From Deltaproteobacteria bacterium (lineage in GTDB: Bacteria > Myxococcota > Myxococcia > SLRQ01), in assembly GCA_029210625.1 (NCBI GenBank), contig JARGFU010000002.1, positions 227,290 to 291,289 on the forward strand: 64,000 nucleotides of DNA, given 5' to 3'. Under the pieces are notes generated by a model that was given only the letters and a program-made list of their open reading frames with translations, was not told where the DNA came from and made no database searches. The position numbers and the translations under genes are program-made. This document shows, in pieces, positions 1 through 13,018 of the stretch (position 1 is its first letter; each line of letters begins with the position of its first letter).

Positions 1-2579
1 TTCTTCTTCTTGGGTTTCTTCTTCTTGGGCTTGTCGTCGGACAGCTTGCCCTCGGCGAACTGCTCGGCCAGCTCGGTGTTGGCGACCGGCAGGTAGAAGA
101 GGTCGAGGGTCTGCACCATCACCAGGGCGAAGAAGCCCAGGAAGTGCGCCGCCGCGGCGAGGCCCGCGCAGGTCGCCCAGAGCCGGGTGGCGAAGGCGTC
201 CTTCACCGCCTCGGGCGGCGCCGCCGGGCGGAAGACCCGGATCCGGTAGTGCCCGTCGTCGAGGGCGAGCTCGAGGCGATCGAGGGTGGCGAGATCGACG
301 CTGGCCGGGCCGGCGACCGCGTCACCCTGGCCGAACTCGCCGTGGAAGTGCACCGCGCTGACGCCGGCCGGCACGTTCACGCGGCAGCCGCCCTTCCTCA
401 TCTTGGCGAGCGGTTTCCTCTCGGAGGGGTGCTTGAACTTCTTGCCGGCGGTGAGGATCGCGGCGCTCTGGACCACCTCCTGCTGGAGGTGGAGCACCTC
501 GGCCACCGGGCCGCTCTGGGCGTCCACCCGCTCGTCACCGAGGGTGAGGGCGGCGACCTCGCTGCCGCCGACGATCTGCTGCACCGGGAAGTAGGAGGGC
601 TGCCCGACCTCGAGGTCGTCGTCCTCGGGATCGTCCCGGTAGATGTCGATGGCGCTGCCGTCGGGTGGCAGGCCGGAGAGGTCGAGGTCGGTGGCCGCCG
701 GCGGCCGCGGCTGCGGCAGGATCGGCCTCTTGATCTTGGGCTCGGTGCCGGTCCGGGCCTTCTCCTTCTCGATGCGGGCCGCGGCCTTCGCCTGCGCCTT
801 GCGCTCCTTCTCCTCGCGGGCCTTGCGGGCCTTCTCTTCCTTGGCCGCCTGCGCGGCGGCCTTGCGCGCGGCCTTCTCCTCCCGGGCCGCCGTGTCCTCG
901 ACCGGGGCGGAGGGGGCGCGCTCGTGGCGCGTCTCGGGCTGCTGCAGGGCGTGGCCGAGCTGGCTGGCGGGATCCGTCGCCATCTCCTCGGCCAGCGGGG
1001 GCCGGGCGGCGCCGAGGGGATCCGCGGCGAGCTCGGGCGGCCGGTCGACCACCATGGTGGCGTCCGAGCCGGTGTGGGCCGCGGCGGGGGCCTTGTTGCT
1101 CGCGGGGCGCACCCGGAAGGTGAAGCGGCCGGCGGCGACGGTGTCCTCGGGGCCGAGGACCGCGAAGTCCACCCGCTCCCCGTTCACGTCCACCGGACCG
1201 CCGGTGGTCGTCAGCATGATCGTGTCACCGTCCCGGTGGAGGACGGCGTGCTTCTCGGCCACCGTCTTGTCGCCGGCGGCGCGCAGGTGCGCGCGAGGCC
1301 CCGAGCCCACGACGGCCTCATCGGGGAGCTCGACGGTGCGCATCACCCGGTCGCCGACGAGGATCTCGACGTGGATGCCCTTGGGCGCGATCCCCGGGCC
1401 GACGCCGTCGGTGACCACCGGGGCCTTGGTGGTCATGGCCGCCAGCAGCTCCTGAGAGACCTGGACCTGGCGGGTCTCCTCTCCCTCCTCCTCGTCGTCC
1501 TCCTCCTCCGGGGCAGCGGGCGCCGGGGCCTCGGCCATCGCGGGCTCGCGCGCCTGGGAGGGGGTGCCCATGTTGAAGACGTAGGAGAGGGAGTCGACGG
1601 TCTCGGAGTCGAACTCGGCCTCCCCGCCGCTCTGGATGACCTTCAGCCAGGCCTCGAGGCGATCGGGGAAGAGGCTCTTCATGAAGCGGGCGAGGTGCAC
1701 CGGCGTGATGGGCGAGCCCTGGCCGTGGAGGAAGCGCTCCAGGGCCATGTGCATCCGGTGGCAGTCCTTGAAGCGATCGCCGGGCTTCTTCTCGAGAGCC
1801 CGCATCACGATGGCCTCGAGCTCGGCCGGGACGTTCGCCCGGATCGAGGAGGGCTTCGCCGGCGTGGTCTCGCAGATGGCCTTCACCGTCGCCAGATCGG
1901 TCTCGTGCGAGTAGAGCCGCTGGCCGGTGATCATCTCCCAGAGCACGATGCCCAGGGAGAAGATGTCCGAGCGGTGATCGAGGGGCTGCCCGGAGCACTG
2001 CTCCGGCGACATGTAGCCGTAGTGGCCCTTGACCATCCCCACCCGCGTCTCGCGGATGTGCGACGCGGCCTTGGCGATGCCGAAGTCGACGATCTTCACC
2101 TGCCCCTGGTAGGAGAGCAGGATGTTCGCCGGGGAGAGATCGCGGTGGACGAGGTCGAGGGGCTGGCCCTTGGTGTCGGCCTTGGTGTGGGCGTAGTAGA
2201 GCGCCTCACAGGCCTGGGAGATGACCTTGGCGGCGTAGGCCACCGGCATCGCGCTGTGGCCGCGCTCGCCGATCCGCTTCTGGAGGTAGCGCAGGTTCTC
2301 GCCCTGGACGAACTCCATGGCGATGAAGAGCGAGGAGTTCATCTTCCCCAGGTCGAAGATCTGCACGATGTTCGGGTGAGAGAGCTGGGCGGCCAGCCTC
2401 CCCTCGTCCACGAACATCTGGATGAACTCCTTGTTGGCGAGCAGGTGGGGCAGGATGCGCTTGAGGACGACGAGCTTCTCGAAGCCCTCGAGGCCGCGCT
2501 GGCGCGCCAGCCAGATCTCGGCCATGCCGCCAGTGGCGAGGTGCCGGAGCACCTGGTAGCGCTGGGAGGTTCCTGCCAC
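1..2579 (-). CDS. Ser/Thr protein kinase - FHA-like - transmembrane fusion protein (3' end beyond window)
   Basis: At least 859 residues; the reading frame is still open at base 1. The GTG start at 2579 lies 3 bases after the preceding stop with a GGAAGAG-type ribosome site. Residues 1 to about 280 form a eukaryotic-type kinase: glycine loop around 15-23, Lys40 in VVLKRIL, catalytic loop HRDLSPANIL starting at His145, DFG at 165-167, and GYMSPEQ. Residues about 385-500 resemble an FHA domain, with an AEKHAVL segment followed by VNGERV. A Lys/Ala/Glu-rich coiled-coil stretch lies near 560-600 and one hydrophobic helix near 801-825, followed by the Lys-rich DDKPKKKKPKKK at the window edge. In Myxococcus, GltG-type proteins have a cytoplasmic FHA domain, one membrane helix and periplasmic TonB-like domains, so the missing C-terminus may be AgmX/PglI-like (inference). 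It closes the ExbB/ExbD operon, suggesting phosphorylation-linked control of an energised envelope machine. Confidence 0.85.
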   Translation of the reverse strand, partial: MAGTSQRYQVLRHLATGGMAEIWLARQRGLEGFEKLVVLKRILPHLLANKEFIQMFVDEGRLAAQLSHPNIVQIFDLGKMNSSLFIAMEFVQGENLRYLQKRIGERGHSAMPVAYAAKVISQACEALYYAHTKADTKGQPLDLVHRDLSPANILLSYQGQVKIVDFGIAKAASHIRETRVGMVKGHYGYMSPEQCSGQPLDHRSDIFSLGIVLWEMITGQRLYSHETDLATVKAICETTPAKPSSIRANVPAELEAIVMRALEKKPGDRFKDCHRMHMALERFLHGQGSPITPVHLARFMKSLFPDRLEAWLKVIQSGGEAEFDSETVDSLSYVFNMGTPSQAREPAMAEAPAPAAPEEEDDEEEGEETRQVQVSQELLAAMTTKAPVVTDGVGPGIAPKGIHVEILVGDRVMRTVELPDEAVVGSGPRAHLRAAGDKTVAEKHAVLHRDGDTIMLTTTGGPVDVNGERVDFAVLGPEDTVAAGRFTFRVRPASNKAPAAAHTGSDATMVVDRPPELAADPLGAARPPLAEEMATDPASQLGHALQQPETRHERAPSAPVEDTAAREEKAARKAAAQAAKEEKARKAREEKERKAQAKAAARIEKEKARTGTEPKIKRPILPQPRPPAATDLDLSGLPPDGSAIDIYRDDPEDDDLEVGQPSYFPVQQIVGGSEVAALTLGDERVDAQSGPVAEVLHLQQEVVQSAAILTAGKKFKHPSERKPLAKMRKGGCRVNVPAGVSAVHFHGEFGQGDAVAGPASVDLATLDRLELALDDGHYRIRVFRPAAPPEAVKDAFATRLWATCAGLAAAAHFLGFFALVMVQTLDLFYLPVANTELAEQFAEGKLSDDKPKKKKPKKK

Positions 2580-2582
2580 GGT

Positions 2583-3056
2583 CTACTCTTCCTTGTCCTG
2601 CACGTCCTTGCCGAGCACGGGCTCGACGATCTGCTGGAGGTAGCTCTGCCGCATCGAGAGGAGGGGGGGCAGCTTCCGGGGGGCGCGCTGGAAGAGGTAG
2701 ACCGCGCCGGAGGTGGCGGTCTGTCCCTTCACCAGGCGGGCGTCGAACTCCATGCGGTTGGAGCGGCGCAAGGAGGCGCCCGGGGGAGGGGCCGCGCCGC
2801 CGCCCTCTTCGCCCTCGGAGAGGCCGGTGAGGTCGCCCTCACCCGAGTCGAGGATGTCGCTGGCCTCCGCCGGAGCCGCGGCCGGGGGCGCCGCCTCGGG
2901 GACGGGATCCGGCTTGGGCGGAGGCTTCTTCTTGCCGGGCCGGCGCGTCTTCTTGCGGCAGCCTGCTGCCACGTCATCGCCGCGGGGCGCGCCGGCCTGG
3001 GCGAGGGCCGGCAGGGAGAGCAGGAGGGCCGCGACGATGGAGAGGAGGAGCTTCAT
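2583..3056 (-). CDS. Small secreted protein with Lys/Pro-rich linker
   Basis: 157 residues with a clear Sec signal peptide (MKLLLSIVAALLL, cleavage expected after ALAQA). A Lys/Pro-rich linker (RRPGKKKPPPKPDPVP) and an Ala/Pro/Gly-rich acidic segment follow. The C-terminal third, about residues 95-157, looks folded and ends in a charged tail. I recognise no family. The start overlaps the stop of the upstream ExbD gene by 4 bases (ATGA type), so it is probably translationally coupled to it. The kinase gene begins 3 bases after its stop. Its position between the motor genes and the membrane kinase suggests a periplasmic accessory or linker subunit (inference). Confidence 0.8.
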   Translation of the reverse strand: MKLLLSIVAALLLSLPALAQAGAPRGDDVAAGCRKKTRRPGKKKPPPKPDPVPEAAPPAAAPAEASDILDSGEGDLTGLSEGEEGGGAAPPPGASLRRSNRMEFDARLVKGQTATSGAVYLFQRAPRKLPPLLSMRQSYLQQIVEPVLGKDVQDKEE

Positions 3057-3592
3057 TTCTTCATGATCGCCAGCCGGTACTTGGAGAACCCGGCGATGCG
3101 GGCCGAGCGCATCACCAGGTAGAGCGTCTGGTAGTCGAGGTTCTTGTCGCCCTGCATCAGGACGATGGTGCCCGCCTCCTCCTCCTCGGTGGCGGGATCC
3201 TCCGCCTCCGCCTCGGGGTCGGCGTCCTCTTCCTCGTCGGCGGCCTGGTCGCCGCCCGGGGGGTTCTTCTCGAGGAAGATGGCCTCGAGGACCTCCACCA
3301 CCGGGTCGATCTGACCGGCCTGGTAGTCCTCGGCCGTGGCCTTGCCCTTCTGCAGGGCGTAGACCTTCTTGTCCTCGACGATGATCGCGTCGGGGGTGAT
3401 CGACATGTTCACCGCGGGCTTGAAGACGCTCTGCGCCGAGGACTCGGGCAGGGTGAGGTCGGGGTTCAGCTTGAAGTCGTAGTCCTCGGCCTCGAAGCTC
3501 ACGATCAGGAAGATCAGGATGATCGTGAACATGTCGAGGAGGCTCGTCAGCATCAGGGCCGGCGCCTTCTTCTTCTTGACCTGCATCCTCAC
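3053..3592 (-). CDS. ExbD/TolR-family biopolymer transport protein (membrane Asp present)
   Basis: 179 residues. A short basic cytoplasmic N-terminus (MRMQVKKKK) precedes one membrane helix, LTSLLDMFTIILIFLI. It retains the Asp that carries the proton path in ExbD/TolR/AglQ-type proteins. A periplasmic domain follows, with a strongly acidic insertion (EEEDADPEAEAEDPATEEEE) near residues 120-140 that typical ExbD proteins lack. The C-terminal segment ending in YRLAIMKK matches the family's final strand. It overlaps both neighbours by 4 bases. With the second ExbD and ExbB upstream it should form a proton-driven motor complex in the inner membrane. The gene symbol is left open because TolR, ExbD and AglQ/AglS cannot be told apart here. 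Confidence 0.9.
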   Translation of the reverse strand: MRMQVKKKKAPALMLTSLLDMFTIILIFLIVSFEAEDYDFKLNPDLTLPESSAQSVFKPAVNMSITPDAIIVEDKKVYALQKGKATAEDYQAGQIDPVVEVLEAIFLEKNPPGGDQAADEEEDADPEAEAEDPATEEEEAGTIVLMQGDKNLDYQTLYLVMRSARIAGFSKYRLAIMKK

Positions 3593-4164
3593 GGCGCAGG
3601 CTCCTCGGCCGGCTCTTCCGTGCTCGCGCCCTCGGCGTCGGGGTCCGGCCGGATCAGGCGGGAGAAGACGGTGACCGGGAAGAGGGGCTCGTGGACGTCG
3701 TCCTTGCCCTCGGCCTTGATGATCCGCTCCCGGGTGACGTCCAGGATGCTCACCAGATCCTGGTAGACGACCGCCTCGGAGGGGAGGACGATCATCGTGT
3801 CGCTCTTGGGATAGTTGGTCTTGACGTTCAGCACCGCTGCCTGGATGGCCGGGAGATCGAAGCCATCCTTCCCCCTGGGGAAGGTCCCGCCGAGCGCCTC
3901 GAGCTCCTGCTCACTCAGACCACTGGCGGAGGCCGAGAGTTCCACCGAGGCCTCGTCCACCTGCAGGTTCAGGGTGACGATCTCGGTCTTCTCGGGCTCG
4001 TTGGTCCCCTCCGGGGTGTGGGTGGGCAGCGAGGTGGGGATCACGCCGATGTGGTAGAAGGCCGCCCCGAGGAGCAGGAAGGGAATGAGGGTCATCATGA
4101 GGTTCATGATGGGGATCAGGTTCAGATCCTCGGCCTCTTTCGCCTTGCGGAACTTGGAGAACAT
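3589..4164 (-). CDS. ExbD/TolR-family protein with Asn in place of the membrane Asp
   Basis: 191 residues. The N-terminal helix reads LIPIMNLMMTLIPFLLLGAA; where ExbD/TolR proteins carry the proton-binding Asp, this one has Asn. The periplasmic part contains the TNEPEKTEIVTLNLQVDE strand pattern usual in the family and an Ala/Glu/Pro-rich C-terminal tail. It lies 27 bases after ExbB and overlaps the next ExbD by 4 bases. Two TolR-like partners for one TolQ-like protein is also the arrangement of the Myxococcus AglR/AglQ/AglS motor. I infer that this subunit is structural or regulatory and that the 3053-3592 partner does the proton work. Confidence 0.9.
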   Translation of the reverse strand: MFSKFRKAKEAEDLNLIPIMNLMMTLIPFLLLGAAFYHIGVIPTSLPTHTPEGTNEPEKTEIVTLNLQVDEASVELSASASGLSEQELEALGGTFPRGKDGFDLPAIQAAVLNVKTNYPKSDTMIVLPSEAVVYQDLVSILDVTRERIIKAEGKDDVHEPLFPVTVFSRLIRPDPDAEGASTEEPAEEPAP

Positions 4165-4191: not shown

Positions 4192-4875
4192 CTAGGCCAC
4201 GCCCCGGTGGCTCTCGGAGGAGCCGCTGGTGGGCGAGGGGGCCTGCATCTCGCGGACGGTGCCGGTGAGGGCGACCATCAGCTGGCTGGCGCCATCCTCC
4301 ACCTCGAGGACGATCTTCTCGGAGCGCTCCGAGAGGAAGTGGTGGAAGAAGAGGAGGGGCACCGCCACGACGATGCCGAAGGCGGTCGTGTACATGGCCT
4401 GGGAGATGCCGTCGGCCAGGGCGGTCTGCCGCTCGGCGGCGCTGGCGGCCGCGACGCTGGCGAAGGCCGCGATGAGGCCGAAGATGGTGCCGAGCAGCCC
4501 GAGGAGGGTGGCGGTGTTGGCCAGCAGACCCAGGAGGCCGACGCGCTTCTGCAGGTGGGGCAGGGCGCCGATCATCTCCTTCTCCATCGCTCGCTCGATC
4601 TCCTTCTCGCGCCGGTTGGCGCGCAGGAGGCCGGCGCGGACGACGTCCACCACGGGGTGGCGGGTGTTCACCGAGCAGGCGTCCACGGCCTGGCGGAAGC
4701 GGCGGGCCTCCACGTGGCCGACCACCGTCGCCATGAAGCGGCGGATGTCCAGCTTGCGCAGGAGGAAGAGGTTGAAGGCGCGCTCCGCGAAGACGGTGGT
4801 CCCCAGGATGGAGACGATCAGGATGACGTACATCATCCATCCGCCACGACTCAGGTACTCAAGAATGGTGCTCAT
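4192..4875 (-). CDS. MotA/TolQ/ExbB-family proton channel protein
   Basis: 227 residues from the ATG at 4875, which overlaps the upstream lipoprotein stop by 4 bases. Three membrane segments are visible: residues about 10-30 (WMMYVILIVSILGTTVF), and two in the C-terminal half (LLGLLANTATLLGLLGTIFG and MYTTAFGIVVAVPLLFFHHF), the TolQ/ExbB topology. The TATLLGLLGTIFGLI and TTAFGIVVAVPLL blocks are family hallmarks, including the conserved Thr residues lining the proton path. It forms the stator of a proton-driven motor with the two ExbD-like proteins downstream. The next gene starts 27 bases after its stop. Confidence 0.93.
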   Translation of the reverse strand: MSTILEYLSRGGWMMYVILIVSILGTTVFAERAFNLFLLRKLDIRRFMATVVGHVEARRFRQAVDACSVNTRHPVVDVVRAGLLRANRREKEIERAMEKEMIGALPHLQKRVGLLGLLANTATLLGLLGTIFGLIAAFASVAAASAAERQTALADGISQAMYTTAFGIVVAVPLLFFHHFLSERSEKIVLEVEDGASQLMVALTGTVREMQAPSPTSGSSESHRGVA

Positions 4876-5762
4876 GGAGCTCCTTCTCCGGAAATGAGGC
4901 CACTGGTGATCCCGACCTCGTTCTCTTCGCTCTGGATGGTCTCGAGGGTCAGCAGGGTACCCGACTCGGGGGCCGTGCGTCTGATCTCGTGACGTTCCAC
5001 CTTGATTGAGGCTGTATCCGTGTTCAGGGACAGCCAGTCCAACGACCCCGCCGGGATGGCCTGGCATCCATCGTCCACCACCCTGCATATCACGCGATTG
5101 CGGGTCGCGGGGTTGGTGGGGTCGGCCGGGTCGTCGGTGGTCAGCTCGATCTGCACCCAGGTCGCGCCCGAGGGGACCCACTCGACGAGCATCTCGGCGC
5201 CCAGCGCCTCCCGGGAGGTCGTCAGCCCCTCGAGGGGGGCGGCGGCGGTCACGGCCTCGTCGACCGAGGGGAAGGTGGCCGCGCCGCTGGTGTCGGCCTG
5301 CCAGCTGGCCCGCAGCTCCTCGCTGCCCAGGACGCTGGCCTGGGGCGAGGAGGCATAGGCGCCGCTGACCGTGCCCACGTCGAGGGCCCCGCCGGGCAGG
5401 CCCTCGATCCGGGCGCCCTGCACGGTGAGGGCCGCGGGGGGGGTGTCGATGACCGGCACGCCCACCACTCGCCAGCAGTTCTCCCCGTCCATGTCCACCG
5501 GGGCCGGGGAGCCCTGGTAGGGGGTGAAGTCGAAGACCAGGATCTTCACGGTGCCCGCGGCGCCGCCGCCGATGCGATCGGTGCGCTGCTCGGCGGTGAC
5601 CACGGCCTCCCTCCCGGGGGCGTCCCCGGGGCCGGCGCCCGGGGGCAGCTCCAGGATCGGCAGGGCGCGATCCAGGCACTCCTCGGGGACCTTGCCGCCG
5701 CCGGTGCCGCAGGCCAGGGAGAGGGCCGCCAGGGTCGCGGGCAAGAGGGCGATCCTTCTCAT
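4872..5762 (-). CDS. Lipoprotein of unknown function
   Basis: 296 residues from the ATG at 5762. The N-terminus MRRIALLPATLAALSLACGTGGG is a lipoprotein signal with Cys at position 18. The mature part is rich in beta-strand-like segments with alternating hydrophobic residues (TVKILVFDFTPYQG, MLVEWVPSGATWVQIEL) and has a few cysteines (NCW, VICRVV, DDGC). I recognise no family. It overlaps the upstream VWA lipoprotein stop and the downstream ExbB start by 4 bases each, so it sits firmly inside the motor operon. It may be an outer-membrane or periplasmic partner of the motor (inference). Confidence 0.85.
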   Translation of the reverse strand: MRRIALLPATLAALSLACGTGGGKVPEECLDRALPILELPPGAGPGDAPGREAVVTAEQRTDRIGGGAAGTVKILVFDFTPYQGSPAPVDMDGENCWRVVGVPVIDTPPAALTVQGARIEGLPGGALDVGTVSGAYASSPQASVLGSEELRASWQADTSGAATFPSVDEAVTAAAPLEGLTTSREALGAEMLVEWVPSGATWVQIELTTDDPADPTNPATRNRVICRVVDDGCQAIPAGSLDWLSLNTDTASIKVERHEIRRTAPESGTLLTLETIQSEENEVGITSGLISGEGAP

Positions 5763-7723
5763 GGCTGGCCTCCCAGGGGTGGCCGCACGAACTCCTCGTC
5801 CATCACCGTCACGATCGCATCGGGCGGGTTGCGGAAGTCGGGCGGGATGTACTGAACGGGCAGGTTCGCGATCCGGAAGGGGCCGGGGATGGTGGTGCGA
5901 TCCTCGGGTGCCTGGGCGAAGTAGATGAAGAGGTCGTTCCAGCCGCCCTCGACCTCGCCGCCGGTGGGCAGGGTCTCCATCAGCTTCACGTTGCGGACCG
6001 TGTAGGAGAGGCACTGGCGCTCGCGGAAGATGACCCGCACCGACTCCTGGGTGTCGACCGGTGGAAGCTGCGCCGGATCGGCGCGGATGAGGAGCTTGCG
6101 GCCGGCCTCTCCCTGCACGGGGGCGTAGGAGGAGGAGGGCACCTCGACCTCGCCCCCGTTGCCCACGGCGACCGCGGGCCCCGGCCGGGCGTCGAGGGGA
6201 TCCTGCCAGGTGAGGCTGGGGGCTGCCCCGGCGAAGAAGCGCAGGGTCCCCACGCCGCCGATGCCGTCGGCCGTGCCGTCCGAGATGCCGATGATCTCCA
6301 CGCCCGTGAGGTAGCGCAGGCGCGAGGCGCTGGGCTCGGAGGAGAAGCCCTCGTCGACGATCTGGTAGCGGTAGCCCTGGGCGAGGTGCCCGGTGGCGTC
6401 CGAGCTGCGGGGGTCAGTGTGGGCCGCGACCTCGTCGGCGTTGCTCACTCCGTCGCCGTCGATGTCCCCCACCGCGTCCGGGTTCACGTAGTCGGTGCCG
6501 CTCACCAGCTCGAGGCGGTCGGGGAGGGCGTCGCCGTCGGAGTCGACCAGGGAGGGGTCGGTGCCGATCAGGGCCTCGTCACAGTTGGAGAGGCCATCCC
6601 GGTCGAGATCCCGCTCGGGGTTCTCGAGAGGGGTGCAGGCCGAGGGGGTGTTGATCGCGAGCGGATCGAAGCCCACCAGGATCTCGACCAGATCGCCGAT
6701 CCCGTCGCCGTCGCTGTCACGCAGATCGGGAAGGGTGCCCTCGAGCTCCTCGTCGGCGTCGGGCAGGCCGTCGGCGTCCGAGTCGACCACCTGCCCATCC
6801 GCGGTGGCGATCGAGTTGGCGTTGGAGACCAGCAGGTGCTTGGCCGAGAGCACCGTGCGCAGGTTCAGCACGTCCAGCCCGGTGAGGGTGAAGGTGTTGG
6901 GCGACGCGAAGCGCTGGTAGAGCCCGGAGCCGGCGAAGGCCATCCGGCCCATGCCCCAGCCCACGGTGTCGTTGTCGGAGGAGGCCAGCTCGGCGGCGAG
7001 GTGGACCACGTGGAGGCGCAGGCCCGCGGCGCCGGCCCGCTGGACGGCCTCGGACATCTCCACCACGTCCAGCACCTCGAGCTGCGCCTGGCAATTCGGA
7101 TCCTGAACGTTGCCGCCGGTGATGCAGGCGGTGTCGGTGGGCTGACAGCACTCGGAGCGCATGGTCAGGGGCTGGTGGAGGCCGGCGTTGGCCAGGATGA
7201 TGACGTACTGGGTGAGGATCCGCTCGCCCGAGGTGACCTCGGCCATGTCCCCCTCGATGAGGGCGCGGGCGGTGCGCAGGCCCTCGCGGTAGCGGCGGCA
7301 CTGGAAGTTGCCGATGCAGGGCTGGGGCAGCGAGAGCTGGTTGATGGCGTTGAGCAGCTCGCCCGGGTTCCGGGTGAAGTTGCCCTCGAGGGGGGCGAGC
7401 TTGCGGCTGGCGCCGGCGTAGCCCACCACCGCCAGCTCGTACTCGGGGTGGGTGAGGGCCGACTGGACGAAGGCCGAGAGCACCTGGATCCGCAGGCTGC
7501 CGGGATCGAAGGAGGAGAAGAGGGGGCCGGCGGCCTGATCGACCACCAGCACCACCTTCACCGGGAAGCGGGCCGAGGCCGGATCCTCGGTGCAGACCCG
7601 CCCCTGGAGGGTCATGCGATCCGGCTCCGCCGGCGGGCGGAAGCGGTGGTAGAGGTTCGCCTCGGTGCAGGCCGCCAGCGTGGTGAAGAGGCCGAGGGTG
7701 GAGAGGAGCGCGAGCCGCCGCAT
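5759..7723 (-). CDS. VWA-like lipoprotein with TSP3-type repeats and degenerate MIDAS
   Basis: 654 residues. The lipoprotein signal MRRLALLSTLGLFTTLAAC gives Cys19. An N-terminal motif, LQGRVCTEDPASARFPVKVV, leads into a von Willebrand factor A fold. The metal-site motif reads D62-Q-A-A-G rather than DxSxS, so metal binding is doubtful. Residues about 320-445 carry D-x-D-x-D-G repeats (DSDADGLPD, DSDGDGIGD, DSDGDALPD, DIDGDGVSN), expected to bind calcium. The C-terminal about 200 residues are shared with the two VWA lipoproteins encoded at 8566-10830 and 10835-13018. It overlaps its upstream neighbour by one base (TGATG) and the downstream lipoprotein by four. A surface-exposed adhesin or scaffold is the likely role (inference). 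Confidence 0.9.
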   Translation of the reverse strand: MRRLALLSTLGLFTTLAACTEANLYHRFRPPAEPDRMTLQGRVCTEDPASARFPVKVVLVVDQAAGPLFSSFDPGSLRIQVLSAFVQSALTHPEYELAVVGYAGASRKLAPLEGNFTRNPGELLNAINQLSLPQPCIGNFQCRRYREGLRTARALIEGDMAEVTSGERILTQYVIILANAGLHQPLTMRSECCQPTDTACITGGNVQDPNCQAQLEVLDVVEMSEAVQRAGAAGLRLHVVHLAAELASSDNDTVGWGMGRMAFAGSGLYQRFASPNTFTLTGLDVLNLRTVLSAKHLLVSNANSIATADGQVVDSDADGLPDADEELEGTLPDLRDSDGDGIGDLVEILVGFDPLAINTPSACTPLENPERDLDRDGLSNCDEALIGTDPSLVDSDGDALPDRLELVSGTDYVNPDAVGDIDGDGVSNADEVAAHTDPRSSDATGHLAQGYRYQIVDEGFSSEPSASRLRYLTGVEIIGISDGTADGIGGVGTLRFFAGAAPSLTWQDPLDARPGPAVAVGNGGEVEVPSSSYAPVQGEAGRKLLIRADPAQLPPVDTQESVRVIFRERQCLSYTVRNVKLMETLPTGGEVEGGWNDLFIYFAQAPEDRTTIPGPFRIANLPVQYIPPDFRNPPDAIVTVMDEEFVRPPLGGQP

Positions 7724-8271
7724 CAGGGCCCCCCGTCCGTGCCGCAGGCGCTGCCGCCGTCGGGGAGGGTGGTGGGATCCCGGGGCTGGAGGGTCTCGCA
7801 GACGTTCGGGGTGCCGCCGAACTGGGCGATCTCGCAGAGGCCGGCCACGCAGGTCTGACCGAAGGCGCAGGAGACGCCCAGGCAGTCGGAGGTGAGCGCC
7901 ACCGTGACGTCGGTGCTGCCGCGGACCGGGAACTCGATCCGGGCCTCCACCCGGGTGACCTCGATCTGATCCCGCAGGCCCTGGACCGTGACCCACATCC
8001 TCCCCGCGCCCTCGCGCAGATCGAAGCTCTGCGGCAGGGCCTCGGGATCGAGGGGGCAGCCGCCGTCGGCGGGGAACTCGTAGAGATCGAAGACCCCGGA
8101 GTAGGACTCGACGCCGTTCTCGTCGGAGAGGGAGAGGCGCAGGGTGTCGACCTCGGTGGGCACGGCCACGTCGCCGCAGACCTCGACGGAGACCGCCGGC
8201 CCCGACAGACACCCCGCTCCCAGAACAATCAGCCCCAGGCCGATCGCGTATGGTCCCCAGAACCTCAGCAA
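7723..8271 (-). CDS. Cysteine-containing lipoprotein, first gene of the motor operon
   Basis: About 182 residues if started at the TTG at 8271, which gives an ideal lipoprotein signal, LLRFWGPYAIGLGLIVLGAGC. No ATG lies close upstream in frame. ATG and GTG codons further up would add a basic, unlikely leader and lie at or before a promoter-like sequence. The mature protein has beta-rich segments (VDTLRLSLSDENG, VEARIEFPVRGSTDVTVAL) and a Cys cluster near the C-terminus (DCLGVSCAFGQTCVAGLCE) like the short Cys motifs of other myxobacterial surface lipoproteins. No family is recognised. It is the first gene of the leftward operon and overlaps the VWA gene start by one base. The start is the least certain part. 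Confidence 0.75.
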   Translation of the reverse strand: MLRFWGPYAIGLGLIVLGAGCLSGPAVSVEVCGDVAVPTEVDTLRLSLSDENGVESYSGVFDLYEFPADGGCPLDPEALPQSFDLREGAGRMWVTVQGLRDQIEVTRVEARIEFPVRGSTDVTVALTSDCLGVSCAFGQTCVAGLCEIAQFGGTPNVCETLQPRDPTTLPDGGSACGTDGGP

Positions 8272-8565: not shown

Positions 8566-10830
8566 ATGAGCGGGAACTGGGGAGGCCAGCGATCAATGCA
8601 GCAGATGGACCTTGAGCGAGGGGCTCGAGCCTGGGGAGTCGTCCTGGGAGGACTGGCCCTGCTCGGTCTCCTCGTGCCCTTCGCCGCCGGGCTGGGCTCC
8701 TGCACCGACGCGCGCCTGCAGTACGAGCCGGCCGAGGAGCAGGTGGTCTACGACAACCTGCTGAAGGTCGAGGGCTCGATCTGCACCTACCCGGCGGACA
8801 ACGTCACCTTCCCGGTGAAGATCCTCTTCCTCCTCGACGCCTCGGCCTCCCTGCAGTGCACCGATCCGATGAACATCCGCTACACCGCGCTCAACGAGGT
8901 GGTGCAGGGGATGCTGGCCGCGCCCAACGTCCACATCGGCGCGGTGGCCTTCGCCTCCTTCTCCCGGCGCCTGAACTTCACCCAGAACGCGCAGGACATC
9001 ACCTCCTTCCTCAACGCTCCGGAGAACCAGAACGGCACCGCCACCGACTACCAGGGCGCGCTGGCCACGGCGGTGCAGATGATCGAGCAGGACATGATCG
9101 CGGTGGGCGCGGCCGAGCGGGCGCGCAGCCGCTACATCGTGGTGATGGTCTCCGACGGCCTGCCCATGCCCACCTGCCTGCCGGGCTGCGAGGACGACAT
9201 CCCGAACTGCACCAACGGCGACGACGACGACGGTGACGGGCTGGCCGACGGCGCCGATCCGGACTGCGCCAACATCAACGACAACGTGCTGCACCCCGAC
9301 AACCTCTCGGGGGTCTGCAACACCGATCCGGCCTTCCGCCGCGACCGCGTCGATCCCGACCTCTTCTACGTCGACATGCAGGGCATCTGCCCGGCCTACA
9401 ACCAGCCCGAGCAGCTGATGGCCCGCGTCGAGGATCTGATGGCGCTCAAGGACGCCTACTCCTCGGGTGAGCTCTCCCTCCACAGCGTCTTCCTCTTCGC
9501 CCCCGAGGCCGTGGTCGCCAGCCGCTGCACCGCGCAGTACGCGCAGCTCCTCGGCGGCGACCGGGACACCGCTGTGGCGATGATGCAGTCCATGTCCGAC
9601 GCGGGGAACGGCATCTTCCGGGACGTGAACACGACCACCGGAGAGACCGACTTCCTCGAGTTCGACTACACCTCCCTGGAGAGCGTCTACTGGATGACCG
9701 AGATGCTGGCCGTGAACCAGCACGCGGTGCCGACGGTCGACGCCATGGTCCCGGACTCGGACATGGACGGCATCCCCGATCTGGTCGAGGACGAGCTGGG
9801 CACCAACTGGCTCGAGCCGGACTCGGACGTCGACGCGGCCGGGGTGCCCACCCAGGACGGCTACCGCGACTTCTTCGAGGATCGCTACGACAGCTCCGGC
9901 TTCGACCCGGTCGATCCGAACCTGCCCTCCGCGCCCTGCACCGACACCGCCGATCTCGACGGCGACGGGCTCAACGGCTGCGAGGAGAACTTCATGGGCA
10001 CCGGGCCCCGGCTGCCCGACACCGACGGCGATCGCATCCCCGACGGCATCGAGCTGCGGGCCGGCACCGATCCGCTGCGGGACGACAGCCAGGAGGACCC
10101 CGACTTCGACGGCCTCTCGAACCGGGACGAGATCCGCGCCCGGACGATGCCCCTGGTCCCCGACATGGACCGCTATCGGACCTCCTCGATCCGCTACGGC
10201 CTGGACGACCTCGGTCAGCACCTGATCCCCAACCTCCTCACCGGCGAGCTCGAGCTGCGGCGCTGCTACGACTTCCGGGTCAGCCGGATCGAGCTGGTGC
10301 CCACGCCGCTGCCCAGCGACCGGGGCCTCAACCGGATCCTGATCTACGCCATGCAGGAGCCGGTGCAGCTGGTGGGCGCGCGGCCGATCACCCAGGTCGC
10401 CTGCGTCGAGGCCTACTACCAGGGCGAGACCACCAAGGACCCGCCCAGCGGCGTCATCGAGCTGACCCAGGAGTACTGGGACACGGTGGCCTTCGCCTTC
10501 CAGGCCCAGTTCGACGCCATCCGGGACGAGTGCGCCACGAACGGCCGCCGCGGCGGCCTCATCAACCGCATGCGCGAGTGCATGCCGGCGAAGATCCAGG
10601 TGGGCAAGTACCTCTTCACCCGGGACGAGCTGGAGGATCTGGTCCGCAAGTACGCCGACCCCGACCTCATCATGCGCATCCCGATCACCGCCTCGGACAT
10701 CTTCGTGGATCTCGAGATCTTCGATCCCGACACCGACTGCCACCGGCCCTGGGAGATCTCCCGGCTGCAGCAGCTCCTCAACGATCTGCGCGACGAGTGC
10801 CGGACCTGCCCCGCGGTGACGGGAGGCTAG
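8566..10830 (+). CDS. VWA lipoprotein with TSP3-type calcium repeats
   Basis: 754 residues from 8566; an in-frame ATG at 8596 preceded by GGGGAGG may be the true start. The signal anchor LALLGLLVPFAAGLGSC ends in a lipobox Cys46. The motif VEGSICTYPADNVTFPVKIL precedes a VWA domain with an intact MIDAS, D91-A-S-A-S, plus IVVMVSDGLPMP. An acidic insertion, NGDDDDGDGLADG, sits inside the VWA region. D-x-D-G repeats (DSDMDGIPD, DLDGDGLNG, DTDGDRIPD, DPDFDGLSN) occupy about 400-530. The C-terminal domain carries RCYDFRVSRIELVPT and NRILIYA, shared with its two paralogues. It is the first gene of the rightward operon; the next starts 4 bases after its stop. It is probably displayed on the outer membrane and binds a ligand through divalent metal. 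Confidence 0.92.
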   Translation: MSGNWGGQRSMQQMDLERGARAWGVVLGGLALLGLLVPFAAGLGSCTDARLQYEPAEEQVVYDNLLKVEGSICTYPADNVTFPVKILFLLDASASLQCTDPMNIRYTALNEVVQGMLAAPNVHIGAVAFASFSRRLNFTQNAQDITSFLNAPENQNGTATDYQGALATAVQMIEQDMIAVGAAERARSRYIVVMVSDGLPMPTCLPGCEDDIPNCTNGDDDDGDGLADGADPDCANINDNVLHPDNLSGVCNTDPAFRRDRVDPDLFYVDMQGICPAYNQPEQLMARVEDLMALKDAYSSGELSLHSVFLFAPEAVVASRCTAQYAQLLGGDRDTAVAMMQSMSDAGNGIFRDVNTTTGETDFLEFDYTSLESVYWMTEMLAVNQHAVPTVDAMVPDSDMDGIPDLVEDELGTNWLEPDSDVDAAGVPTQDGYRDFFEDRYDSSGFDPVDPNLPSAPCTDTADLDGDGLNGCEENFMGTGPRLPDTDGDRIPDGIELRAGTDPLRDDSQEDPDFDGLSNRDEIRARTMPLVPDMDRYRTSSIRYGLDDLGQHLIPNLLTGELELRRCYDFRVSRIELVPTPLPSDRGLNRILIYAMQEPVQLVGARPITQVACVEAYYQGETTKDPPSGVIELTQEYWDTVAFAFQAQFDAIRDECATNGRRGGLINRMRECMPAKIQVGKYLFTRDELEDLVRKYADPDLIMRIPITASDIFVDLEIFDPDTDCHRPWEISRLQQLLNDLRDECRTCPAVTGG

Positions 10831-10834
10831 GGGA

Positions 10835-13018
10835 GTGATGCGCAAGCGAGCCGCCCGGCATCACGTCCTGCTCCTCCTCGGCCTGCTCGGCTTCGGCCTG
10901 GGCTTCGGCTGCGCCCGCTCCACCCTCGAGAAGTGGCCGCCCCGCGAGGACACCCACCGCGACGACAAGCTCGAGATCGACGGCAGCCTCTGCACCCGAG
11001 AGCCCGAGAGCCTGATCTTCCCGCTGCGGGTGCTCTTCATCGTCGACGGCTCGGAGTCGATGCGGATCACCGACCCGGTGGATCCGGTCACCCTCCAGAC
11101 CGGCCGCGAGATGGCGGTGGAGGCGACCTGGCAGGACCTGCTGGACCAGGGCATCGAGGGCGTGCGCATCGGGATCATGCGCTTCTCCGCCCAGGCCCAG
11201 AGCTACACGCCGGTGGACTACGACGGCGACACCGTGCCCGACTCCTACTTCACGGTGGACCCCCTGCAGCTCACCTCGGCGACCTCCCAGCTGCAGGACA
11301 CGGACCGGACCACGAACTACCTCAACGCCCTCTCCGAGGCCTACTTCGAGCTGCGCACCGAGATGCTCCAGGGCGACATCGAGTCGCTGCCCCTCTCGAA
11401 GTACGTGGTGATCTTCGTCTCGGACGGCATCCCGGACATCGACGATCAGGAGTCGCGGGAGAACTCCTCCGAGAACATCCTCGAGTCGGTGCTGCAGCTG
11501 CGGCGGCTCGCCGAGCTCTTCCACGTCGGCGACTTCTCCTTCCACACCGCCTACCTCTCGGCGGGGCAGGGGCCGGCCCTCGATCAGCCGGCCCAGCAGC
11601 TCCTGCGGCAGATGGCCGAGGTCGGCGGCGGCTCCTACCGCTCCTTCCCCAACGGCGAGGAGATCAACTTCCTCCACATCGATCTCTCGATCATCCGGCG
11701 GGTCTTCACCCTGCGGACCCTCGCGGTGATCAACGAGATGGCCCTCCTCGATCAGCACCAGAAGCCGGACATCGAGATGCCCCGCTTCGACTCCCTGGCC
11801 TACGTGGACCTCGACGGCAGCGGCGAGATGGACTGCGGCGAGCCGCTGGTCGACTCGGACGGCGACGGGCTCGCGGACCACGTCGAGCTGCGCATCGGCT
11901 CGGATCCCTTCCTCGCCGACACCGACGACGACGGCCTCTCCGATCGGGTGGAGTGGGACTTCCGGATGTCGGGGCGGGATCCCCTCGATCCCGACGACTC
12001 GAAGTGCTTCGTCCCCGAGCCCTGCCGCGACTGCGGGGCCGACGGCTCCTGCCCGGAATCGCCGGGCTACCCGGGTCCGGACGCGGGCGAGGCCCCCTGG
12101 TCCTGCGGCGCCGACGGGCTCTGCCCCGCCGACCCCGGCTACCCCGGCCCCGACGCCGGCGAGAACCCCGGCTCCTGCGGGGTGGACGGCCTCTGCCCGC
12201 CGGATCCGGGCTACCCCGGCCCCGACTCCGGCGAGGGCGACGGGATCTGCGACTGCCTGCGGGACGGCGACCGCGACGGCGTCTGCGACTGCGTGGGCGA
12301 CCCCGACCAGGTCTGCATGGACGCCGCCGGCCACGACTGCCTCGACACCGACCTCGACGGCTGGTGCGACTGCCCCGACCTCGACGTGGACGGCCGCTGC
12401 GACTGGGAGGACCGCGACGGCGATCGGCTGGGCGACTGCGAGGAGATCTTCTTCGGCTCGGCCAGCAACGGCACCGACTCCGACGCCGACGGGCTGCCCG
12501 ACACCCTCGAGGTGCGCTTCCGCACCAGCCCGGTGGAGGCGGACGAGGTCGGCGATCTGGACTTCGACCTGACGCCGAACGGGGTCGAGGTCGAGACCGC
12601 CACCGATCCCCTCTGCGACGACTCGGCCTTCCGCTCCGAGGCCGCCTACCGGTACCGGATCGAGGAGCTGGGACTGCAGGGCGCGAGCACCTGCTACGAC
12701 TTCCAGGTCAGCAACATCACCCTGGTCCCCACCCTGCAGAACCCGGCCGCCGACTTCCCCGGGAACGGATGGAACCGGGTGCTCGTCTACGCGGGCGAGG
12801 TGGCCTTCGACGATCCCGAGACCTTCGCGGCCTACCGGGTCGCCTGCGTGGAGGCGAGCTACGTCGCCGACGGCGACTACAAGAACCCGCCCTCGGGTCG
12901 CATGACGGTCGGCGGCGCCGATCCGGCAGAGGACCTCCTGACCAACCCCGAAGCCTGGAGAGGGAAATTCGTCGATGTGCGCGACTTCGATCCGGACCTG
13001 CACTGCCTCCGCCCCTAG
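10835..13018 (+). CDS. VWA lipoprotein with TSP3-type repeats and a Gly/Pro/Cys repeat insert
   Basis: 727 residues; GTG at 10835 or ATG at 10838 (GGGGAG just upstream). The lipobox GLGFGC gives Cys26. IDGSLCTREPESLIFPLRVL leads into the VWA domain with intact MIDAS D71-G-S-E-S and VVIFVSDGIPD. Calcium-type repeats (DSDGDGLAD, DTDDDGLSD, DSDADGLPD) flank three copies of a 24-residue repeat containing PGYPGPDAGE. A Cys/Asp-rich stretch (GDGICDCLRDGDRDGVCDC) follows. The C-terminus repeats the shared domain: CYDFQVSNITLVPT, NRVLVYAGE, VACVEASY. It is co-transcribed with the preceding paralogue, and its 3' end overlaps the next gene by 44 bases. Confidence 0.92.
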   Translation: MMRKRAARHHVLLLLGLLGFGLGFGCARSTLEKWPPREDTHRDDKLEIDGSLCTREPESLIFPLRVLFIVDGSESMRITDPVDPVTLQTGREMAVEATWQDLLDQGIEGVRIGIMRFSAQAQSYTPVDYDGDTVPDSYFTVDPLQLTSATSQLQDTDRTTNYLNALSEAYFELRTEMLQGDIESLPLSKYVVIFVSDGIPDIDDQESRENSSENILESVLQLRRLAELFHVGDFSFHTAYLSAGQGPALDQPAQQLLRQMAEVGGGSYRSFPNGEEINFLHIDLSIIRRVFTLRTLAVINEMALLDQHQKPDIEMPRFDSLAYVDLDGSGEMDCGEPLVDSDGDGLADHVELRIGSDPFLADTDDDGLSDRVEWDFRMSGRDPLDPDDSKCFVPEPCRDCGADGSCPESPGYPGPDAGEAPWSCGADGLCPADPGYPGPDAGENPGSCGVDGLCPPDPGYPGPDSGEGDGICDCLRDGDRDGVCDCVGDPDQVCMDAAGHDCLDTDLDGWCDCPDLDVDGRCDWEDRDGDRLGDCEEIFFGSASNGTDSDADGLPDTLEVRFRTSPVEADEVGDLDFDLTPNGVEVETATDPLCDDSAFRSEAAYRYRIEELGLQGASTCYDFQVSNITLVPTLQNPAADFPGNGWNRVLVYAGEVAFDDPETFAAYRVACVEASYVADGDYKNPPSGRMTVGGADPAEDLLTNPEAWRGKFVDVRDFDPDLHCLRP
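12032..12247 (+). repeat. Three tandem 72-bp repeats inside a VWA lipoprotein gene
   Basis: Three consecutive in-frame units of 24 codons, each beginning with Cys-Gly-[AV]-Asp-Gly and containing Pro-Gly-Tyr-Pro-Gly-Pro-Asp-[AS]-Gly-Glu. Units two and three are closest to each other; the first has diverged most. The repeat is Gly/Pro-rich with two Cys per unit, so it would make an extended, disulphide-pinned stalk. Unequal exchange could change its copy number. Confidence 0.85.

Follow-up and report, generated by a model that had tools for sequence, protein, structure and literature searches.

The 64,000-nucleotide stretch analysed here (the window; G000:C2:227290-291289) begins with a minus-strand open reading frame (3-2579) that starts at GTG and runs for 859 amino acids up to the window edge. 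Its third-position GC is 0.97, and 200 base shuffles of the stretch yield no ORF longer than 496 aa, as against 859 codons for this frame; it is a genuine gene. Directly to the left of the window lie exactly 100 N, a scaffold placeholder situated inside a PKKKK repeat, with identical 29-base repeats coding for PKKKK on both of its flanks. When the contig is extended leftward, as the preliminary description had recommended, the same frame goes on past the gap to G000:C2:226437 (L009:9148), where it closes with an AgmX/PglI (TonB-like) C-terminus ending in LSREEVLQVINSKMGVIQGCYEKAL...PFMFRSVSS. The whole gene has 1143 codons if counted over the 100-N placeholder, which is no true gap length; because the placeholder interrupts the linker, the reading frame across it rests on the relatives described below.

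The predicted protein joins in one chain a Ser/Thr kinase, a degenerate FHA domain, a juxtamembrane domain, one membrane helix, a Lys/Pro-rich linker and an AgmX/PglI tail. The kinase domain (residues 8-271; 1767..2558, minus strand, as are all parts of this gene) is recovered by the Pfam Pkinase model with E 2e-38. Its motifs (ATGGMAE, VVLK, the α-C Glu, HRDLSPAN, DFG, SPE and the final DR) supply the catalytic Lys, α-C Glu, HRD, Asn, DFG, APE-like and final Arg elements of Hanks-type Ser/Thr kinases, and the earlier reading of an intact kinase was correct. An FHA-like region (residues 415-494; 1098..1337) is followed by the juxtamembrane domain (residues 689-790; 210..515), which is common to the fused relatives in G001 and L071. 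The latter domain has no detectable likeness to FHA in hhalign comparisons (probability under 2%), and the matching stretch of a further relative, G165, gives 20%, a weak hint only. The single hydrophobic helix occupies residues 803-822 (114..173), in line with the earlier placement near 801-825, and is followed by DDKPKKKKPKKK; the start of the putative periplasmic Lys/Pro-rich linker (3..38) stands at the window edge and is cut by the scaffold gap.

The TonB-like tail (G000:C2:226437-227100, outside the window) was assigned by profile matches. It matches the AgmX/PglI model NF033768 with E 2e-31 and 108 bits (cut-off 40), and a GltG profile with E 1.3e-35 over positions 414-647 of the 650-position model, i.e. 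its C-terminal half. The preliminary description had named AgmX/PglI or TonB hits in the missing C-terminus as the test of its proposal, and these matches therefore support it on this point. The tail half scores 123 bits against a cut-off of 650 for the full-length GltG equivalog, and the protein is therefore termed GltG-type rather than GltG. No solved structures matching the tail by sequence were found. The arrangement resembles TolA or TonB working with TolQR or ExbBD in having a proton channel and a single-helix transducer with a TonB C-terminal-like domain, but the generic TonB model TIGR01352 matches the tail only weakly (E 0.006), and to our knowledge TolA and TonB lack a cytoplasmic enzyme.

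The FHA-like region is sub-threshold in Pfam (Yop-YscD_cpl E 3e-5, FHA E 0.24). Nevertheless, a profile of 53 orthologous FHA regions, built with the G000 protein left out, finds it with a domain i-Evalue of 1.4e-10 (Z=1000), and it is homologous to Pfam-confirmed FHA domains that occupy the same operon slot in orthologs. A single-sequence AlphaFold model of the region is uninformative (all β, pLDDT 44). The homology thus upholds the FHA fold proposed earlier, and the accompanying idea that this domain binds the kinase's own phosphothreonines fares poorly. The residues characteristic of phosphothreonine-binding FHA domains are absent from the pocket, with the conserved Arg replaced by Ser, the Ser by Ala (G-S, A-E-K-H) and the Asn of NGT missing, and such binding is therefore unlikely. 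The Arg position is likewise Ser in 41 of the 53 orthologous regions. Furthermore, an FHA domain is undetectable in the fused relatives L071 and G165, and the G001 protein has no Pfam FHA or YscD match.

The gene lies in the middle of an operon, and not at its end as first described. In order of transcription the operon encodes a TSP3/VWA-type lipoprotein, a small lipoprotein, ExbB, two ExbD proteins, a 157-aa protein (p157), the kinase-transducer, an OMP_myx_plus barrel of 200 aa, TPR proteins of 481 and 1086 aa, a lipoprotein of 197 aa and finally an FHA-sigma54 activator (L009:1910-3397, minus strand). Within the window, all on the minus strand, the first gene codes for a TSP3-repeat, MtsD/CglD-like lipoprotein (5759..7771), which is found upstream in all four fused loci. 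It is followed by a lipoprotein-like protein with no family match in domain searches (4872..5762), which has no counterpart between the VWA gene and exbB in L071, and by an ExbB/TolQ/AglR-like motor protein (4192..4875; MotA_ExbB E 6e-27). Next come ExbD-like protein 1 (3589..4164), whose proton-binding Asp is replaced by Asn (PIMNLMM), and ExbD-like protein 2 (3053..3592), in which the membrane Asp is kept (TSLLDMF). The motif of the former reads PIMN against the PFID of ExbD and AglQ, and the same Asn recurs in the G001, L071, L118 and L111 orthologs; in M. xanthus an artificial D28N change in aglQ has an effect on the AglRQS channel (PMC3858216). The p157 gene (2583..3056) encodes an N-terminal signal-like segment and a conserved NRMEFDARLIKGQ...GAVFLFDRAPRPLP-like stretch; in most operons of the family it stands directly before the TonB-like gene, and the protein has no Pfam or NCBIfam name. 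Besides the first gene of the operon, two further TSP3-repeat lipoprotein-like proteins lie on the plus strand beside it (8566-10830 and 10835-13018). All three are related to the MtsD/CglD models of cell-cell cohesion and gliding, and both plus-strand proteins have VWA domains.

Homology searches recovered the ExbB-ExbD-ExbD-p157-transducer-OMP-TPR-TPR order in G001, in L071, where the barrel-TPR-lipoprotein block is inverted, and in the unfused operons L118 and L111; the large TPR gene of G165 lies on a separate contig. Operon context in three genomes supports the ExbB/ExbD motor link proposed in the preliminary description. The linkage of ExbB, two ExbD, TPR and outer-membrane genes is that of the Agl/Glt core complex, and the operon has this "core complex" layout. 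Its gene order matches that of AglRQS/GltDEGC together with GltH; the gliding genes of M. xanthus encode TPR proteins of 1191 aa (GltD) and 471 aa (GltE), the 209-aa barrel GltH and the 640-aa GltG with FHA and TonB domains (PMC3169522). GltG and NfsG of M. xanthus bind the ExbB/TolQ-like AglR (PMC3169522, PMC3858216), and a standalone core complex of aglRQS and gltDEGC, of unknown function, is present in non-gliders (PMC3169522). The fusion protein shares with GltG the single membrane helix, the Pro/Lys-rich periplasmic arm, the AgmX/PglI TonB-like tail, a cytoplasmic-side FHA and an operon with TPR proteins and an outer-membrane barrel. It differs in that a Ser/Thr kinase stands ahead of the FHA, the FHA pocket is more degenerate, and the operon itself contains ExbB/ExbD genes. 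We conclude that the kinase-transducer belongs to a variant of the Agl/Glt type of machine.

Over the whole G000 genome the AgmX/PglI tail model has matches at 18 places, 15 of them above the cut-off; they include a 1068-aa ORF with two tail domains (contig C4) and two near-complete GltG-like proteins without a kinase (contigs C9 and C55). As these two kinase-less proteins are also available to the organism, the fusion complex need not drive gliding.

Most orthologous operons elsewhere in the Myxococcota encode an N-terminal FHA and no kinase. Those of L105, L109, L112, L115 and L118 have the transducer in the same slot along with p157, the OMP and two TPR genes, ExbB/D genes are also present in L111 and L118, and the FHA and tail of these proteins are homologous to those of the fusion protein. 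A survey that covered 195 genomes of the phylum, and the best-scoring candidates of each, gave matches to the tail profile at E 1e-35 in 67 genomes. The full ORF was read for nearly all of these matches and for the further AgmX/PglI proteins of G000, giving 66 tail ORFs. A kinase is present in three of the 66, in addition to the split gene of G001, and in 0/62 of the non-fused tail ORFs examined; a homologous FHA region takes its place in 53 of the remainder. A scan of genome contigs with exact short peptides of the tail matched only L071, and provides no measure of abundance. We found no description of a kinase-TonB fusion in the literature searched, a weak negative given that subscription journals lay outside the search. 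A tree built from the tails alone gathers the four fused members in one clade (100/100, 100% of bootstrap trees) that sits within the FHA-type members, which places the fused tails at a single origin on that tree. A single clade of fused kinases is not rejected in the kinase tree (p-AU 0.60), which leaves a single origin of the kinases unresolved because the pseudokinases are long branches. Probably the kinase joined an FHA-type transducer once, and the FHA afterwards became undetectable in the other three members.

Catalytic competence is unevenly retained among the fused proteins. HRD and DFG are kept in G000 and G001, which belong to one family. The L071 kinase has HGG and NFD and has lost the catalytic Asp, and that of G165 has HGA, again without the catalytic Asp, and a degenerate glycine loop; both pseudokinases still match Pkinase far above threshold. 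The kinase fold, judged by its sequence, thus outlasts catalysis in the fused family, and, as two of the four members have dead kinases, catalysis appears dispensable for the machine in the L071 and G165 lineages.

The 100-N placeholder lying exactly between the two halves, with identical 29-base repeats on either side, raises the question of whether scaffolding joined a kinase half and a TonB-like half of different genes. This is very improbable. A deltaproteobacterial MAG (L071; PFUG01000635.1) encodes the kinase fold, juxtamembrane domain, helix, KPKK linker and tail in a single ungapped ORF of 1012 aa, the tail being 57% identical to that of G000 over the best segment. The genome G165, from another family of the phylum, likewise has one ungapped 906-aa ORF with kinase, membrane helix, linker and TonB-like tail. 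The G000 tail groups with those of the ungapped fusions (100/100), and both operon parts flanking the gap are collinear with the corresponding genes in G001 and in unfused operons. In G001, the only other sampled genome of the same family, the kinase half lies at the end of one contig and the tail, together with the barrel and TPR genes, at the start of another, so that this assembly broke at the same place. The kinase-transducer fusion is real and rare, its function being proposed from sequence. That the protein is a PEGA- or PASTA-like receptor kinase of the usual kind, with an odd low-complexity C-terminus and no relation to the motor, is barely conceivable. The closest kinases outside the fused family are indeed PEGA-type kinases of the Myxococcota, the nearest being 55-59% identical to the fused kinase domain. 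However, these show no TonB-like tail match at the sampled C-termini (20 loci), whereas domain searches found no PASTA or PEGA repeats in the fusion chain, its C-terminus is AgmX/PglI/GltG-like and its operon supplies ExbB and two ExbD. The earlier remark that the protein is unlike the usual PASTA and PEGA kinases was well founded.

A different alternative concerns the direction of signalling. Membrane-bound kinases of the Hanks type are usually sensors that have extracytoplasmic domains, and the fusion protein might similarly be a sensor kinase with a borrowed TonB-like sensor arm. Periplasmic or outer-membrane engagement of this arm, through cell contact, load or envelope damage, would then alter kinase dimerisation, and the kinase would report it, e.g. 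to the FHA-sigma54 activator. We regard this as possible, at somewhat less than even odds. The activator at the operon end is consistent with such a receiver, as its FHA retains most of the pocket (Ser, His and STNGT) and has Lys at the Arg position. An ortholog occurs in the operon of both genomes with intact kinases (that of G001 is 65% identical), and no comparable one was found beside the fused gene or within the genomes of L071 and G165. This co-occurrence is a lead, because it compares two genomes with two and the intact pair comes from one family. On the other hand, the two relatives without the catalytic Asp keep the tail and helix, which argues that phosphorylation output is not the conserved part, and FHA-type orthologs occupy the same operon slot without any kinase.

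Taken together, we favour, with a probability of about 0.8, the reading of the gene as a force transducer of the GltG type (TolA/TonB-like) that serves an Agl/Glt-like proton-motor complex, and to which a kinase derived from PEGA kinases was added at the cytoplasmic N-terminus. By analogy with TolA/TonB and GltG (PMC5349195), ExbB/ExbD, powered by the proton gradient, would act on the transducer's membrane helix, and the Lys/Pro arm and TonB-like tail would extend to the barrel and the VWA/TSP3 adhesin-like lipoproteins at the outer membrane. The kinase might set when or where engagement occurs by phosphorylating the transducer itself or its partners; alternatively, it might signal engagement to the cytoplasm, with the FHA-sigma54 activator as the likely receiver. 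Where the catalytic Asp is lost, as in L071 and G165, the only role of the kinase fold would be that of a regulator that binds a ligand or partner. That the kinase senses or gates the motor is a plausible inference; the parts and their linkage are given by the sequence, and the direction of control is inferred. Tentatively, and with rather more doubt, the force transducer might itself act as the signalling kinase, coupling phosphorylation to the mechanical engagement of the envelope-spanning machine in a single chain. It would thereby convert outer-membrane force or cell contact into a phosphorylation signal or the reverse, and in lineages with an active kinase the FHA-sigma54 activator would be its dedicated receiver.

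In this relative of the gliding myxobacteria the fusion might place a proton-driven envelope machine under direct chemical control. It also draws attention to core complexes, of unknown function, whose partners are VWA/TSP3 adhesin-like lipoproteins, and bears on what commands Agl/Glt-type machines beyond Myxococcus xanthus and on the role of the GltG FHA. A natural clade whose transducers would have a kinase as their regulatory part in the cytoplasm, active in certain lineages but dead in the rest, offers a direct handle on this question, through which phosphosubstrates and the effects of kinase-dead alleles and of motor removal could be measured.
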